NCBI GenBank assembly: GCA_903835685.1
Contig: CAILNX010000043.1
Location: 248,001 to 312,000 of the forward strand
Length of the DNA: 64,000 nucleotides
Reading direction: 5' to 3'
Source of the DNA: an uncultured delta proteobacterium
Lineage (GTDB): Bacteria > Desulfobacterota > Desulfovibrionia > Desulfovibrionales > Desulfovibrionaceae
The notes beneath the pieces were generated by a model, which saw only the letters and a program-made list of their open reading frames with translations, was not told the origin of the DNA and did no database searches. Position numbers and translations under genes: made by a program. Shown piece by piece: positions 23,637 through 59,467 of the stretch. The first letter of the stretch is position 1. Every line of letters starts with the position of its first letter.

Positions 23637-24887
23637 TCAGGGCGCTGGGGTAAGGCCGAGCAGGCGCGGCCCCTGGTACACCTTGCGGCGGTCGAAGACA
23701 TGGGCCACCCGGGCAGTCCCGGCCCGCTCGCAGGCGTGGCAGCCGTCCAGCAGGGGATAGGCGAACACGAAACGCTGACCGCCCCCGGGTTCGCCCTCCC
23801 GGGCCAGGAACTCGGGCTCCACGGTCCACAGCTCGGCCTGGGGAAAGCGCGCCCGGATGGCTGGGAACTCGGGGTCGGCCGAGAGGTCCAGGTCGGTGGC
23901 CGAAAACTCCGTGGACACCATGGCCGGGCGGCCGCCCAGGATGCAGGGCACATTGTTGGTGTTGGCTCGGGCCGGATAGGTCAGCACGGCCAGGCCCAGG
24001 TCGCCCATGGGGGTGTACTGGCTGACGTAGGCCTCGCCCTGGGCCAGACGGGCGGCGGCCAGGGCCTGGGACGAGGCCCCGGTGGCCCGCATGATCCGCC
24101 GCAGGCAGGGAACCACGCCCTGCCCCCGGTCCAGGCAGGCCCGGAAGTCCCTGACCAGGGCCGGGGCCTGCTTCTCGTCCGGGAAACGCCAGATGAGCGC
24201 GGACTCGAGCTCTGCCGCCCACAGGGGCTGGCCCGCCAGGACAACGAGCAACGCGGCCGCGCCCCCGGCCCGGGCCAGAAGGCCCAGAAGCCGGAGCCCG
24301 TCGCGGGCCAGAAGGACGGCAAAACCCAGGAGCAGCGCGCCCAGCACGCGCATGGCCCAGGCATAGGCCTGGCCCTGGAACAGGCCCCGGGAGCGAGCCG
24401 CCAGCCAGGCCACCAGGATCTTCGCGCCCACCAGGCAGACGAAAAACCCGGCCAGGAAGGCGACCACGGTCCCAGGCCCCTGGGCCTGGCCCTGGATGAG
24501 CAGGGGAACCCCGACCATGAGCCAGAACAGGTAGGGGTGGGGGGAGAGCAGGTTCACCAGGGTGCCCTTGACCAGGGAGCGGGGCGCCTGGGCCGGGGGC
24601 AGGACCGGAATCCCCCTGGCTCGGAAGCCCTCCAGCCCGAGCCAGGCCACGAAGCATCCTCCGGCCAGGGAGAGCAGGCCCAGCACGGACTGGTGCCCGG
24701 ACCAGCGGGAGAGGATGAGCAGGCAGATCAGGATGATGAAGGTGTCCGTGACCAGGGGGGTGAGGGCCACCTTGAGGCCTTCGACAAAGCCGTGGCGCAG
24801 GGACTGGGAGACCACCAGGGCCAGGAGCGGCCCGGGGGTCAGCCCGGCGGACAGACCCAGGAGGATTCCGGCGGCGAGAAGCTCCAT
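23637..24887 (-). CDS. LysE-family exporter fused to an unassigned C-terminal domain
   Basis: A 416-residue fusion. Residues 1 to about 215 are a LysE/RhtB exporter: GLSAGLTPGPLLALVVSQSL, then several helices and VNLLSPHPYLFWLMVGVPLL. Residues 216-416 form an extra domain of unknown fold with paired Cys (ACLDR, VPCLRR, NVPCIL, DGCHAC) and YTPMGDLGLAVLTYPARANT, bounded by a hydrophobic hinge (AALLVVLAGQPLWAAE) that looks like a signal anchor. Usual LysE proteins have about 210 residues. The C-terminal part would face the periplasm if the topology is canonical. Probably co-transcribed with the FCD gene. Confidence 0.85.
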   Translation of the reverse strand: MELLAAGILLGLSAGLTPGPLLALVVSQSLRHGFVEGLKVALTPLVTDTFIILICLLILSRWSGHQSVLGLLSLAGGCFVAWLGLEGFRARGIPVLPPAQAPRSLVKGTLVNLLSPHPYLFWLMVGVPLLIQGQAQGPGTVVAFLAGFFVCLVGAKILVAWLAARSRGLFQGQAYAWAMRVLGALLLGFAVLLARDGLRLLGLLARAGGAAALLVVLAGQPLWAAELESALIWRFPDEKQAPALVRDFRACLDRGQGVVPCLRRIMRATGASSQALAAARLAQGEAYVSQYTPMGDLGLAVLTYPARANTNNVPCILGGRPAMVSTEFSATDLDLSADPEFPAIRARFPQAELWTVEPEFLAREGEPGGGQRFVFAYPLLDGCHACERAGTARVAHVFDRRKVYQGPRLLGLTPAP

Positions 24888-54049: not shown

Positions 54050-54721
54050 ATGACCGATTTCGAAGTGATTCTTGCCCGCATCCATCAGGTGGCCGGGACG
54101 AAGACCCAGGTTCAACTGGCCGCCGTCCTCGGTATCCGGCAATCATCAATTTCAGATGCCAAACGTCGTGGAAGTGTACCTTCGGACTGGGTGCTCAAAG
54201 TGTTCGAGCGTTTCGGCGTCAACCCGGAGTGGCTGAAGGCGGGTCACGGTGACATCTATCTCATCCCAGGCCGGGCCATTGTTAGCCAGGACTCCATTCG
54301 GCAGAACTTCCCTCGGGCCATGGAGTACAATCAATCAGTGGTGGTCCCGGTACAAGCCATGAACGCCTGCGACAGCACGACTCTGGATCACGCTGTCCTT
54401 GCCCATCTAGCAATCCCCGCGCCCATGAACTGTGAAGGGCTTCAGGTCTTCAAGGTTGGCGACTCTGCGATGGAGCCGCAGATCACACGGACGGCATTTG
54501 TAGGTGTGGACACCAGGCAGAAGAACATCGTGGCCGGTGAACTCTACATCTTTGCAGTGATGGATTCCCGGCTGGTTCTGCGGAGGGTTTACTTTGACCA
54601 GGCTACAAACTCCTTCCTCCTCCGGGCTGCCAAAGAGGATCACCCCGATATCAAGGTGGCCGTCGAGAACGCGAAGTCAGCGGCGTTGGGCCGAGTTGCC
54701 TGGATTATCCAGGAAGTGTAG
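54050..54721 (+). CDS. Phage-repressor-like regulator with a degenerate S24 domain
   Basis: A 223-residue CI-type regulator: HTH around residues 19-45 (QVQLAAVLGIRQSSISDAKR), then WLKAGHGD, and a C-terminal S24/LexA-like domain with S139 (VGDSAMEP, an extra Ala between GDS and MEP) and V-L-R-R at 176-179 where a catalytic Lys is expected. Self-cleavage is therefore doubtful. ATG at 54050 after GGAG. It may act on the repeat cluster upstream of the 55070 gene. Confidence 0.8.
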   Translation: MTDFEVILARIHQVAGTKTQVQLAAVLGIRQSSISDAKRRGSVPSDWVLKVFERFGVNPEWLKAGHGDIYLIPGRAIVSQDSIRQNFPRAMEYNQSVVVPVQAMNACDSTTLDHAVLAHLAIPAPMNCEGLQVFKVGDSAMEPQITRTAFVGVDTRQKNIVAGELYIFAVMDSRLVLRRVYFDQATNSFLLRAAKEDHPDIKVAVENAKSAALGRVAWIIQEV

Positions 54722-55069: not shown

Positions 55070-55495
55070 ATGAAAAAGCTTCTCGCCGTACTTTGTCTCG
55101 TTCTGTTGACTTCCCTTGCTGTTAACACCGCAATGGCCGCAAAGAATGATCAAAAGCAAACTCAAGACTCACAAGACTCTGCGACTTACCAAAAGTATCT
55201 TTCTGATACGGTTACAATTCGCCAGGAACTGGCAAGCAAGCGAGCTGAATTCCAAGCTCTTATGAGTGGCCAGAATCCAGACCCGGCTGCAGCTGCTAGC
55301 CTTTCCAAAGAAATATTCAATTTGCAGGAGAAGCTCCGCGCTCAAGCTCCTTCTAGAGGGTTTGGGCGTGGCGGTGGATATGGATATGGCGGTTGCCCTG
55401 GCTCTGGTGGATACGGAGTCGGTTGCGCAGTTGGTGGTGGGGGTGGCTGCGGAGGTGGAAACGGAGGACATGGTCGAGGCATGGGCTGGTATTAA
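55070..55495 (+). CDS. ZraP/Spy-like periplasmic protein with a Gly/Cys-rich tail
   Basis: A 141-residue exported protein: signal LLAVLCLVLLTSLAVNTAMA, then a Gln-rich helical region (TIRQELASKRAEFQALMSG, NLQEKLRAQ) typical of zinc-resistance/CpxP-type chaperones, and a C-terminal Gly-rich tail with Cys (GGCPGSGG, GVGCAVGGGGGCGG) and a final His-containing HGRGMGWY, which may bind metal. ATG at 55070 after AGGAGG. Metal or envelope stress role inferred. Confidence 0.78.
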   Translation: MKKLLAVLCLVLLTSLAVNTAMAAKNDQKQTQDSQDSATYQKYLSDTVTIRQELASKRAEFQALMSGQNPDPAAAASLSKEIFNLQEKLRAQAPSRGFGRGGGYGYGGCPGSGGYGVGCAVGGGGGCGGGNGGHGRGMGWY

Positions 55496-56399: not shown

Positions 56400-56720
56400 C
56401 TAAAAGGTCAGCACCTTGTCCGATTCCTGGATAATGTCGAGCATGGTGCGCATATTGGACAGCGGGCAGAGTTCGGTCCCCTCCTTGGAATGGAGTTTAA
56501 GACAAGTCCCGCAGGCGAACACCCGCCCTCCGGCCTCGACGAATCCTCGCATCATCTCCATCACCTTGAACTGATCAGTGTCCAGATTTTCCGCCTCGAC
56601 GCCCTTGCCGGTCAGGAAGCATTTCACGCTCTCTCCCTGCTTCAGCGAGAATGAGCCGAAGCGAAAGGCGTTCCAAACAGTCTCCGGATCGTTCGAGTAG
56701 AGTATGATGCCGATCTTCAT
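56400..56720 (-). CDS. DsrE/TusD-family sulfur-transfer protein
   Basis: A 106-residue DsrE-fold protein: MKIGIILYSNDPETVWNAFR, a long helix, then GRVFACGTCLKLHSKEGTEL with Cys pairs (CGTC and ELCPLS). Such proteins pass persulfide sulfur in oxidation or tRNA-thiolation pathways. The ATG overlaps the VTT gene's stop (ATGA) and an AAGGAG lies 8 bases upstream. Final gene of the operon that starts with the UGA-containing rhodanese. Confidence 0.85.
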   Translation of the reverse strand: MKIGIILYSNDPETVWNAFRFGSFSLKQGESVKCFLTGKGVEAENLDTDQFKVMEMMRGFVEAGGRVFACGTCLKLHSKEGTELCPLSNMRTMLDIIQESDKVLTF

Positions 56721-57397
56721 GCGGAATCTCCTTTCAATCTCTTGATGATCGCCGGAATGAAGAAGGAAAAGATGAACAGCCCGACAGCAAAGAGGACCCG
56801 CCATCCGAGAAGCTCCGCCCATTGCCCGCTGGCCCAAATTTCCTTGATCGTGCCGATGGCGAAGGTGAAAATGAATGTTCCAACCAGGATTCCCACGGCT
56901 GTTCCGAAGAAGTAATCCCGAAAACGAACACCGGTCAATCCCATGCCGAAATTCATGACGTTGAAGGGGAAGTAGATGAGCCTCAAGTACAGGGTGGTGG
57001 CAAATCCGTTCCGCTCGATGGCCGCATCGTACCGCTTCAGCCCTTGGCCGATCATGGAGGCCGCGAAGTCGCGTCCCAGATGCCTGCCAATGAGAAAGGC
57101 CAGGGTCGGGCCGATCATGGCCCCCAGCCAGACATAGAGAAAGCCCAGATAGGGGCCGGCGACTGCGCCGACAACGGCCAGGAGTGTGCCCGGAGCGAGC
57201 AGGCAGACCCCGGCTGCGTAGCCCAGAATGTATATGATCGGTCCCCATATGCCCGCCCCCTCGATGAGCCCGCCGAGATGATCTGCCGTAAGATAGGACA
57301 GAAGCAGAGTGAACCGGACCAGTCCGAGGGCTGCCAGCAGAAAGGCTATGAAAAGCGCAGCGTTCCAGATTGTCTTTTTTGGTCTGGGGATTTCCAT
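56717..57397 (-). CDS. TVP38/TMEM64 (VTT/DedA-like) membrane protein
   Basis: A 226-residue inner-membrane protein: N-terminal helix, then GTLLAVVGAVAGPYLGFLYV, FLIGRHLGRDFAASMIG and YLRLIYFPFNVMNFGMGLTG, the VTT signature. Homologues are lipid scramblases or selenite/metalloid-transport related. ATG at 57397, 13 bases after the thioredoxin-like gene. Its place in a sulfur/selenium operon makes a transport role for such oxyanions plausible but unproven. Confidence 0.85.
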   Translation of the reverse strand: MEIPRPKKTIWNAALFIAFLLAALGLVRFTLLLSYLTADHLGGLIEGAGIWGPIIYILGYAAGVCLLAPGTLLAVVGAVAGPYLGFLYVWLGAMIGPTLAFLIGRHLGRDFAASMIGQGLKRYDAAIERNGFATTLYLRLIYFPFNVMNFGMGLTGVRFRDYFFGTAVGILVGTFIFTFAIGTIKEIWASGQWAELLGWRVLFAVGLFIFSFFIPAIIKRLKGDSA

Positions 57398-57410: not shown

Positions 57411-57722
57411 CTAACGTTTGAAGAGCCTGCCGAACAGACCCTTGGAAGACGGCTCGGGAAGCCCGAGATGCCTGCATATGCATGCCTCCAACTTGCCTTC
57501 GGACAGGTCGGAGCCTTCAACCACAATTTCGTCCCCGACCATGACTGCCGGAGCGGCCGGAAGATCCAACTCGAAATACTCGTCTGTCTGGTATTCAGCA
57601 TTCGGCTTCGAAACAACTTCGAACTCCACCGCGTATTTGCTGCCCAACCTGGGCATCATGTCCTTAAAATGCTTTCAGGGCTTACCGTTTGGCTCGTTGA
57701 GAAAAAATCTGACCGTGAGCAT
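57411..57722 (-). CDS. Thioredoxin-fold protein with in-frame UGA (probable selenoprotein)
   Basis: A 103-residue product if UGA at 57675-57677 (residue 16) reads as selenocysteine. Before it is MLTVRFFLNEPNGKP; after it KHF and the thioredoxin-type sheet with cis-Pro (LPAAPAVMVGDEIVVEG). The UGA falls where a redox Cys is expected after the first strand. The first ATG has a textbook AGGAGG 5 bases upstream; the internal ATG-ATG at 57662 does not. A hairpin 24 bases after the UGA suits a bacterial SECIS. Follows the DsbD gene by eight bases. Confidence 0.8.
57641..57677 (-). promoter_or_regulatory. Candidate SECIS element, thioredoxin-like gene
   Basis: The stem TGCCCA/TGGGCA (57641-57655) has apical loop GGT, or AGGTT with a shorter stem, giving a G in the first two loop positions. 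The loop lies 24-25 bases after the UGA (57675-57677), within the usual 16-37. Confidence 0.7.
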
Positions 57723-57730
57723 GAAGCCTC

Positions 57731-59467
57731 CTATTGTGTCTTCTTGAGTTGTTCCATCCGCTTCAGAAACTCATCGGGGGGCAGGTAGTCCACGAGCCGC
57801 AGATCGCGCCGTTCCTTGCCATGGCCATCAATGAAGATCACCGTGGGCACCCCCTTCACCGCGTACTCCGAGAGGAGCCGTTCATGCACGGGGTCGCCGC
57901 TCCGGGTGAGGTCAATCTTGACCATGACCACACCCTTTTCCGCCACCCGGACGATGGCCGGATCGTGGAAGGTTTTCTCGTCAAGCTCCCGGCACGGGGT
58001 GCACCAGGTGGCTGAAAAATCAATGATGACCGGACGCCCGGCAGCCTTCGACTGGGACAGAAGGGAATCCGAATAGGGCTGCCACGGAACGCTCGGCCCC
58101 GTAAGAATCCACGATCCGGTAAGCACCACAGCCAGGACGATGGCACTTATTCCGACCCCATCCTTGGTGAAGGCGAAGGCCTTGAATCCGGCCTTGGATT
58201 TGTCTATCCACCCGAGATGCACACCGGCGGCCAGGGCGACCCCGGACATGGCCAACACTGCCATTGATTCAGAGAGGAGCGGCCGGATGAAATAGGCCGC
58301 CATGCCCACGAGCACCCAGCCCATGAGCTTGCGCACCCAGAGCATCCATTCGCCCGATCTTGGCAGCTTTTCCAGCTTGCCTGAAAACATGGCCAGAAAG
58401 AAAAGCGGCAGGCCGAGACCCAGGCTCAAGGTGAAGAAGACGAGGAACCCAAGCCAGGGACTGCCCATACTGGCAACCCAGGTCAAAAGCCCCAGGACGA
58501 ACGGGCCAAGGCATGGAGCCGCGACAATGCCAAGGGTGAGCCCCATGAAGAAGGTGCCAAAATACCCCGCATGGGATTTCGAGGCCACCCTGGTCAGCCC
58601 GGCCGGGAGGCGCAGCTCCCAGAATCCGAACAGGCTCGTGGAGAACACGACCAGCAGCAGGGCGATGACCATGAGCACGAGAGGGCTCTGGAGCATGGCC
58701 CCCATCATCCCTCCGGTCAGGGCCGCGACCACGCCGAGAACCGAGTTCGTCAGGGCCAGCCCGATCATGTACAGCAACCCGTGCCCAACCAGGTTCCCAT
58801 GGGCCTGTCCACTCCTCCCGCCGAAGTAGGATACCGTGATGGGGATGAGGGGATAGACGCAGGGCGTCATATTCAAAGCCATCCCGCCCAGAAAGATTCC
58901 GAGCAGGGTCCAGAGCATGCCCCATCCATAGAGAGGGCCAGGGGGAGCCTGATCTTGTACTCCTGATTGGTCCGGCGAGGCGCTTTCTATCGGCAGACCG
59001 GCCTCCTGCAACTCTGGAAAGCCTTTGGGGTCGCGGAAGATGTTTTTGTAACCTAAGGAGACGGCCACACGGGCCGCCGAGTCGCTGCGGACTCAAGTCA
59101 GGCCCGCTCAGTAAAAGACAATCGTCCGATTTTTGTTTGGACCAAGCGCTATCGCCAGTTCGTCTGCTTTCTTCCACCTGGCCCAGGCGGTCGGCTCCAT
59201 CGAAAAAAGAACTGCTCCCTCGATGTGACCGGCCCAATATTCCCAATCTTGACGCGTATCCACCAGTAGAAATCCGTCCCGATCTTTCTGGTAGAGTTCA
59301 GCCAAACCTTCGGTTGTGATAATCTTATAGTTACCGGCCTTAGCTTCGGCCACAACGTCGTCCCAAGTCGGTGTCTTGGGCGTGACGGCGTTATTGGTGA
59401 GCCAAAGAGCGGTAATGGTAACGACTATGACTACGGAAGCCGAGAGGATGAAGGATTTGTTTCGCAC
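57731..59467 (-). CDS. Membrane-anchored rhodanese-DsbD-thioredoxin fusion with two in-frame UGAs (probable selenoprotein)
   Basis: One open frame of 578 residues if two UGAs (59108-59110, 59093-59095; residues 120 and 125) are read as selenocysteine. Order: N-terminal helix (LSASVVIVVTITALWL), rhodanese with LVDTRQDWEYWAGHIEGAV, catalytic loop RTIVFY-U-AGLT-U-VRS, YKNIF, then DsbD helices from about residue 178 (MLWTLLGIFLGGMALNMTPC), and a C-terminal thioredoxin with WCTPC (C489, C492). GTG start at 59467 after AGGAG. It should carry thiol electrons or sulfur across the membrane. Two stop codons by chance at exactly these Cys positions are unlikely. Confidence 0.82.
59060..59078 (-). promoter_or_regulatory. 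Candidate SECIS element, rhodanese-DsbD gene
   Basis: A 7-bp stem GGCGGCC/GGCCGTC (one wobble pair) with loop CGTGT, a G in second position. It lies 21 bases after the second UGA and 36 after the first, so one element could serve both. Confidence 0.65.

Follow-up and report, generated by a model that had tools for sequence, protein, structure and literature searches.

On the minus strand of the window, the 64,000-nt stretch of DNA analysed here as a whole, lies tsoB, a gene with two in-frame UGA codons that is followed by tsoC and by genes for a VTT-domain membrane protein and a small DsrE-family protein. The genes and the two recoded positions are as follows:

57731..59467 (-): tsoB, encoding an N-terminal hydrophobic stretch, a rhodanese domain, a DsbD transmembrane domain and a DsbD-gamma-like thioredoxin domain, with predicted Sec120 and Sec125
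59108..59110 (-): UGA1, predicted Sec120, at the catalytic position of the rhodanese loop; all 41 loop-bearing loci have TGA here, the L116 paralogue TGC
59093..59095 (-): UGA2, predicted Sec125; again TGA in each of the 41 loop-bearing loci, and TGT in the L116 paralogue
57411..57722 (-): tsoC, encoding a predicted 103-aa thioredoxin-like selenoprotein with the motif NEPNGKPU; its UGA is codon 16, at 57677-57675
56717..57397 (-): VTT-domain membrane protein (PF09335), next downstream; its relatives are also found after tsoB/tsoC at several further loci
56400..56720 (-): DsrE-family small protein (PF02635), whose start overlaps the preceding stop (ATGA)

The tsoB frame extends over 578 residues, from a GTG start at 59467 with AGGAG directly upstream to a TAG stop at 57731. 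As the original prediction had stated, it is open except for the UGAs at codons 120 and 125 in the rhodanese loop, and TGA occurs nowhere else in the frame. Translation table 11 cuts the gene into two ORFs (59515-59108 and 59068-57731). The proposal that the rhodanese continues in frame past the UGAs and is joined to DsbD and thioredoxin is borne out by Pfam, which places Rhodanese (residues 57-153), DsbD_TM (186-397) and thioredoxin (about 462-570) in a single frame. In Foldseek searches the N-terminal domain matched rhodaneses (6mxv, Alr3790 3ilm, GlpE 1gmx), and the best matches of the C-terminal domain were to DsbD-gamma (1uc7, 2fwg). The AF2 model of TsoB has a pLDDT of 71.8 and a pTM of 0.52, with low confidence across much of the membrane part, so the domain arrangement that it displays is not trustworthy.

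The protein had been presented as new. Judged by family models, it belongs to a family that is already known and catalogued as TsoB: the product scores 977.8 bits over residues 7-574 against NCBIfam NF045694 (rhodanese/DsbD fusion-like selenoprotein TsoB; cut-off 805), and 236.2 bits against the DsbD model NF001419, a match that covers only residues 184-575 and lies below the cut-off of 330. In its accessible part, a 2026 review (PMC13188914) lists TsoB as “rhodanese-like domain-containing protein form 5,” with the motif UxxxxU and 2 Sec, and expands Tso to three selenoprotein operon, with Haft and Tolstoy 2025 (mSystems 10:e0141724) as its source. No tested function of TsoB is given in that part of the review.

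TsoC, the product of the next gene, scores 151.3 bits against NF045708 (cut-off 45). Its structural model has a thioredoxin-like fold (pLDDT 82.9), whose matches are all weak, with no E value reaching 0.001; the first is ArsD (E 1.3e-3), followed among others by a glutaredoxin and thioredoxins. A sequence search of solved structures returned a single match for TsoC, which was set aside as chance-like (E 0.041). Among 29 listed copies of TsoC, the UGA is in many cases followed by a hairpin. A relative of the DsrE-family gene also occurs after tsoC in L030. Six loci (L023, L025, L031, L034, L045, and L054) have a short frame with the motif N[DE]PCGLTU between tsoB and tsoC, about 1.4 kb after Sec120, perhaps one more gene with an in-frame UGA. 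Elsewhere in the window, a Metal_resist-like protein at 55070-55495 scores 26.6 bits, under the Pfam cut-off of 29.2, and a CI-type repressor with an S24 peptidase domain is encoded at 54050-54721 (+), perhaps a vestige of a prophage or of a mobile element.

Conservation of the UGA codons and selenocysteine machinery

A scan of a genome collection of 84,980 species recovered 49 tsoB-like loci. Eight of these (L058-L061 and L063-L066) are without the rhodanese loop; among them L059, in which an apparent signal peptide aligned across the two positions reads TGT/ATT, was not counted. TGA is present at both positions in all 41 homologous loci that have the loop. Thirty-seven of the 41, at 57-73% identity, were aligned and with the window make up the 38 sequences of the protein alignment, which also served for the codon-constraint scan and the tree; L047, L054, L056, and L062 were excluded for being partial, carrying a deletion or having a frameshift. 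Carriers of tsoB are mostly metagenome-assembled genomes titled Desulfo- or Deltaproteobacteria, and two of the loci handled here, L025 and L117, are one identical stretch.

The rhodanese loop of the window's TsoB reads IVFY-U-AGLT-U-VRSDSAARVAVSLGY. Across the 38 sequences three residues next to the loop, Ser128, Asp129, and Arg133, do not vary, and a fourth, Arg127, is almost invariant. The protein has six Cys or Sec residues in total (U120, U125, C203, C319, C489, and C492), every one of them invariant in the same alignment.

Family-model searches were run on two further sets of genomes. Among 59 genomes (the window's own and relatives), six, the window's included, have a TsoB match above the cut-off, each with exactly two TGAs. 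Among 395 genomes of the phylum, TsoB is found above the cut-off in 22, at 23 places, of which 22 have exactly two TGAs and one has none. The TGA-free place (L116:2993-4762 (+); 913.3 bits, TsoB cut-off 805) reads FY-C-AGPD-C-VRSD, with codons TGC and TGT. The Sec form is present in its genome as well, making this the second copy there, and it perhaps reflects a Sec-to-Cys change. This paralogue supplies the homologue with Cys at residues 120 and 125 that the original prediction had said to look for, and homologues with residues other than Cys in place of the two selenocysteines did not appear.

The machinery for selenocysteine insertion, also named in the original prediction as something to look for, is complete in the window's genome. 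The matches to selA (607.9 bits), selB (368.4 bits), and selD (347 bits) and to the tRNA-Sec gene selC (82.7 bits) each exceed their cut-offs. The selD match (L125; G000:C43:153392-154312 (-), where G000 is the window's genome) contains one in-frame TGA, and SelD of this genome is therefore probably itself a selenoprotein. Separately, ARAGORN reports a tRNA-like element whose anticodon has two bases at 24445-24532 (-) of the window, where Rfam gives none at its gathering score.

Because the UGA pair is conserved, a Cys/Cys paralogue exists, the Sec machinery is complete and the hairpins described below are conserved, TsoB is almost certainly a dual-selenocysteine protein and no pseudogene, as originally argued. 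We rejected as exceedingly improbable the alternative that both UGAs are chance events in a defunct gene, whether by pseudogene formation or sequencing error: it would fit the appearance of the two halves as separate ORFs under table 11, but the identical UGA pair recurs in 41 of 41 loop-bearing loci and in 22 of the 23 above-cut-off places in the phylum, one paralogue has Cys at both positions, the RNA structure is conserved, and sequencing error in particular is very unlikely because the same two UGAs stand in 41 other loci.

Tandem hairpins after the UGA codons

The original prediction had pointed to a hairpin at SECIS distance after the UGAs. Such a hairpin is present, and there are actually two:

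59079..59094 (-): hairpin 1, GAGUC-CGCAGC-GACUC, proposed SECIS of UGA1; 5 bp with a 6-nt loop, loop start 18 nt after UGA1
59062..59076 (-): hairpin 2, CGGCC-CGUGU-GGCCG, proposed SECIS of UGA2; 5 bp with a 5-nt loop, loop start 21 nt after UGA2

Hairpin 1 starts inside UGA2, its 5' arm including the GA of that codon. As evidence from a single sequence the original observation is weak, and a hairpin of this sort was rejected as proof of a SECIS: a 5-bp hairpin of like kind is found 16-37 nt after 406 of the 1807 TGAs on both strands of the window. For this reason the hairpins were tested by conservation. From 47 segments (the window, 40 GTDB loci and six from the search of relatives) three identical copies were removed to leave 44 distinct ones; L054, which has a deletion right after the loop, took no part in these tests. 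All five pairs are kept in 41 of the 44 segments for hairpin 1 and in 42 for hairpin 2. With synonymous codons redrawn from the usage of each gene, the expected numbers are 13.4 and 5.3 of 44, and the maxima in 2000 redraws were 24 and 14, respectively. Among 17 further segments (22 minus five identical to those already used), all from the same phylum and possibly close kin of the first set, hairpin 1 is fully paired in 14 and hairpin 2 in 16.

At the level of single codons, Ser128 is AGY in 44 of 44 segments, and residue 130 is Ser encoded by TCN in 43 and Ala in the other, with both kinds of Ser codon common elsewhere in these genes. For Asp129 the codon is GAC in 43 of 44 segments, although the rest of these genes use GAC and GAT with about equal frequency, and for Val126 it is GTC in 39 of 44. 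Of all 12-codon windows of tsoB, the twelve under the strongest codon constraint start at residues 117-130 (38 sequences). The loop of hairpin 2 is CGGGU, CGUGU or AGGGU in all 44 segments.

Covariation was measured in 61 segments, 60 of them distinct. The proportion of paired cells is 98.5%, compared with 22.7-57.8% when the partner is slid by 1-3 columns. Three of five measures exceed all 500 shuffles: this proportion, the 30 double-change cells (7.3 in shuffles) and the covariation score of 0.168 (0.076 in shuffles). The two that do not are the number of pairs changed on both sides (2 vs. 1.7 shuffled, a value equalled or passed in 348 of 500 shuffles) and that of further pair types (8 vs. 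8.2, equalled or passed in 423 of 500), both in a setting where few columns can vary. No pair of hairpin 1 has a double change in any of the 61 segments, and the support for hairpin 1 is therefore that of codon choice. In hairpin 2, joint changes occur at two of the five pairs, at third codon positions. On the 38-sequence protein tree, one of these pairs takes 3 left, 3 right, and 3 joint steps, where shuffles of the right side take at least 7 joint steps; the other takes 4 left, 6 right, and 6 joint steps, where the shuffles take at least 13. Several separate paired changes, as reconstructed on this tree, support hairpin 2. The Cys/Cys paralogue was discarded as a negative control because both hairpins still pair in it, hairpin 1 with two G-U among its five pairs.

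The bSECIS model in the accessible part of PMC13188914 has a loop of 3-9 nt, a stem of 4-16 bp, a G in the first two loop positions and a spacing of 16-37 nt, with an MFE of -7.5 kcal/mol or lower. Both hairpins of the window satisfy this geometry in stem, loop, G in the first two loop places and spacing. Folded alone, hairpin 1 has an MFE of -6.3 and hairpin 2 of -9.6 kcal/mol, to be set against the threshold of -7.5, and the loop of hairpin 1 is without the preferred G[G/U]. In the window, the 33 nt after UGA1 fold differently. Over the 44 segments, the mean pair probability in a free 75-nt RNA is 0.70 for hairpin 1 and 0.26 for hairpin 2; when the first 27 nt are omitted, to mimic roughly a ribosome that has reached UGA2, the value for hairpin 2 is 0.65. 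These modeled probabilities suit a sequential reading of the hairpins.

On the evidence of conservation, the tandem hairpins are very probably recoding signals. How they divide the work is a closer call, and we lean toward one dedicated SECIS per UGA, two in tandem for UGAs 12 nt apart and read in turn. Hairpin 1 would recruit SelB for UGA1, the ribosome moving on to UGA2 would melt hairpin 1, and the freed hairpin 2 would then serve UGA2. It seems rather unlikely that hairpin 2 is instead the sole SelB-binding element for both UGAs, with hairpin 1 acting as a spacer or as a stem that slows the ribosome. Hairpin 2 does have the better loop, the paired changes and, in the window, the lower energy, and since its loop lies 36 nt from UGA1, inside the range of 16-37 nt in the accessible part of the review (PMC13188914), it might serve both codons. 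Yet hairpin 1 is also kept beyond the needs of the protein, in the codons of Ser128 (AGY, 44 of 44), Asp129 (GAC, 43 of 44) and Val126 (GTC, 39 of 44), and its loop stands at the usual distance from UGA1.

If each UGA does have its own SECIS, the arrangement would act as a ratchet, built into the mRNA, by which two selenocysteines are inserted close together. The tandem hairpins make two questions testable, namely whether bacteria require a separate SECIS for each UGA when two are close and how SelB passes from one element to the next. With the protein family itself known, the conserved tandem hairpins are apparently the undescribed part of this system. Among the matches listed in a literature search that fell short of most subscription papers, none described tandem or overlapping SECIS elements by title or abstract; nor was a description of the tsoB hairpin signal found in that search, whose reach did not extend to Haft and Tolstoy 2025.

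Gene neighborhood and predicted function

Eighteen of the 41 loci encode the LULAxC motif, the mark of TsoA, at a distance of 634-791 nt ahead of the loop and, before it, an unfused ArsR regulator; among the 41 the loci with an unfused ArsR are exactly these 18. The regulator in L020 scores as TsoR (NF045707; 149.9 bits, cut-off 115), and the product in L018 as TsoA (NF045695; 209.3 bits, cut-off 170). The window locus is unusual in being without TsoA and its regulator next door. The TsoA model (NF045695) finds no match in the window's genome, which is 97.6% complete, and matches five of the five other genomes in the same search. A tblastn search for a TsoA remnant upstream of tsoB with two shortened queries (130 and 65 aa) gave no match there, the best E anywhere being 0.19, and the absence of TsoA from the genome rests mainly on the family-model searches. 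In the 4.9 kb upstream of tsoB within the window, tblastn found no match to the L020 ArsR (E 1e-4).

Nineteen genomes were chosen for having no LULAxC beside tsoB. TsoA occurs elsewhere in three of them, in two of these near another tsoB copy, and gave no match in the other 16 (completeness unstated). Because the window's genome and these 16 of 19 have tsoB and no TsoA match, the distribution suggests that TsoB is able to function in the absence of TsoA. L072 has no LULAxC motif, but a TsoA model match lies 72 nt from its tsoB. In two cases of two tsoB loci per genome (L049 and L056, from one isolate, and L037 and L129), TsoA is beside or near only one of them.

In the place of the unfused ArsR and tsoA of other loci, an ArsR-rhodanese fusion is encoded directly before tsoB, about 1 kb upstream of Sec120, in nine loci (L026, L035, L037, L038, L041, L042, L043, L046, and L055), all nine without LULAxC next door; three of the fusions were checked against Pfam and all three have both domains. 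The idea that the fusion replaces TsoA and its ArsR was dropped: the LULAxC search misses variants, and TsoA occurs elsewhere in two of the nine fusion genomes (those of L026 and L037, for the latter near its other tsoB copy, L129).

DsbD passes electrons from cytosolic thioredoxin to a membrane Cys pair, then to the CxxC of its gamma domain and on to the alpha pair. We take C203, C319, C489, and C492 of TsoB to be the membrane- and gamma-domain Cys pairs of DsbD. By this analogy TsoB would have three redox pairs, Sec120/Sec125, Cys203/Cys319 in the membrane and Cys489/Cys492 in the thioredoxin domain, with an outward-facing (extracytoplasmic) rhodanese in the place of DsbD-alpha. Electrons would travel from cytosolic thioredoxin through C203/C319 and C489/C492 to the Sec120/Sec125 bond. 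A DsbD-like flow of this kind is probable, and the thiol or sulfur relay proposed at the outset is a reasonable reading of the TsoB anatomy, which predicts a membrane relay with selenium in place of sulfur at both would-be substrate-contacting residues.

The chemistry at the selenocysteines is the weakest part of the scheme. Sec120 might accept sulfane sulfur from polysulfide, persulfide or thiosulfate; Sec125 might free it as sulfide and close a Sec-Sec bond, which the relay would then reset; and TsoC might be a partner carrier of thiol or selenol type. Sulfane sulfur is a tentative prediction for the substrate, with chances a little under even. A role in sulfur chemistry gains side support from the DsrE-family gene, from the thioredoxin-reductase-like gene upstream of tsoB in L025 and L045, and from the ArsR-rhodanese fusions in the nine loci.

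The main rival to sulfane sulfur is a metalloid or metal complex (arsenic, mercury or selenite), which the same dual-Sec protein would handle as the relay of a detoxification reductase; we consider this unlikely. By its name the TsoR upstream of tsoB in L020 is an ArsR/SmtB-type metalloregulator, the fold nearest to TsoC is that of the arsenic chaperone ArsD, and the sub-cut-off Metal_resist-like protein lies in the window. However, no TsoR-like regulator is found beside the window locus, the ArsD match is weak and is followed by glutaredoxin and thioredoxins, and the rhodanese domain and the ArsR-rhodanese fusions indicate sulfur.

Less likely again is a selenocysteine version of the DsbD-alpha function only, in which the rhodanese fold would be a bare carrier of reductant to periplasmic thiols and would transfer no sulfur. 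The DsbD-like anatomy would suit such a carrier, as would L063, where a stretch that we read as DsbD-alpha-like has CxxxxC, with spacing equal to UxxxxU. Against it, the invariant Ser128, Asp129, and Arg133 and the near-invariant Arg127 of the 38 sequences exceed what a bare carrier would apparently need. Taken as a whole, a dual-selenocysteine TsoB with tandem hairpins as recoding signals, a DsbD-like relay and a rhodanese that might act on sulfane sulfur is the best explanation of the locus, and we regard it as quite probable.

Comparison with known systems

The window's TsoB resembles the family described by NF045694 in its domain order, in both Sec positions, in a score far above the cut-off and in the adjoining tsoC. 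It differs in that the locus is not preceded by an ArsR regulator or by tsoA, and the genome has no tsoA match. With DsbD (NF001419) it shares DsbD_TM with both membrane cysteines, a gamma-like thioredoxin domain with CxxC and, by analogy, three redox pairs; unlike DsbD, it has a rhodanese domain instead of DsbD-alpha, and predicted Sec120/Sec125 instead of the Cys pair of that domain.

Rhodaneses of known structure (6mxv, Alr3790 3ilm, and GlpE 1gmx) have the fold of the N-terminal domain, whereas TsoB has a predicted Sec at the catalytic position, a second one five residues on, and a membrane-bound fusion. The tsoB hairpins agree with the bSECIS consensus, as set out in the accessible part of PMC13188914, in their short stem, small loop, G in the first two loop places and distance of 16-37 nt from the UGA. 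They depart from that consensus in standing in tandem, with the first overlapping the second UGA, and in that hairpin 1 alone misses the energy threshold.
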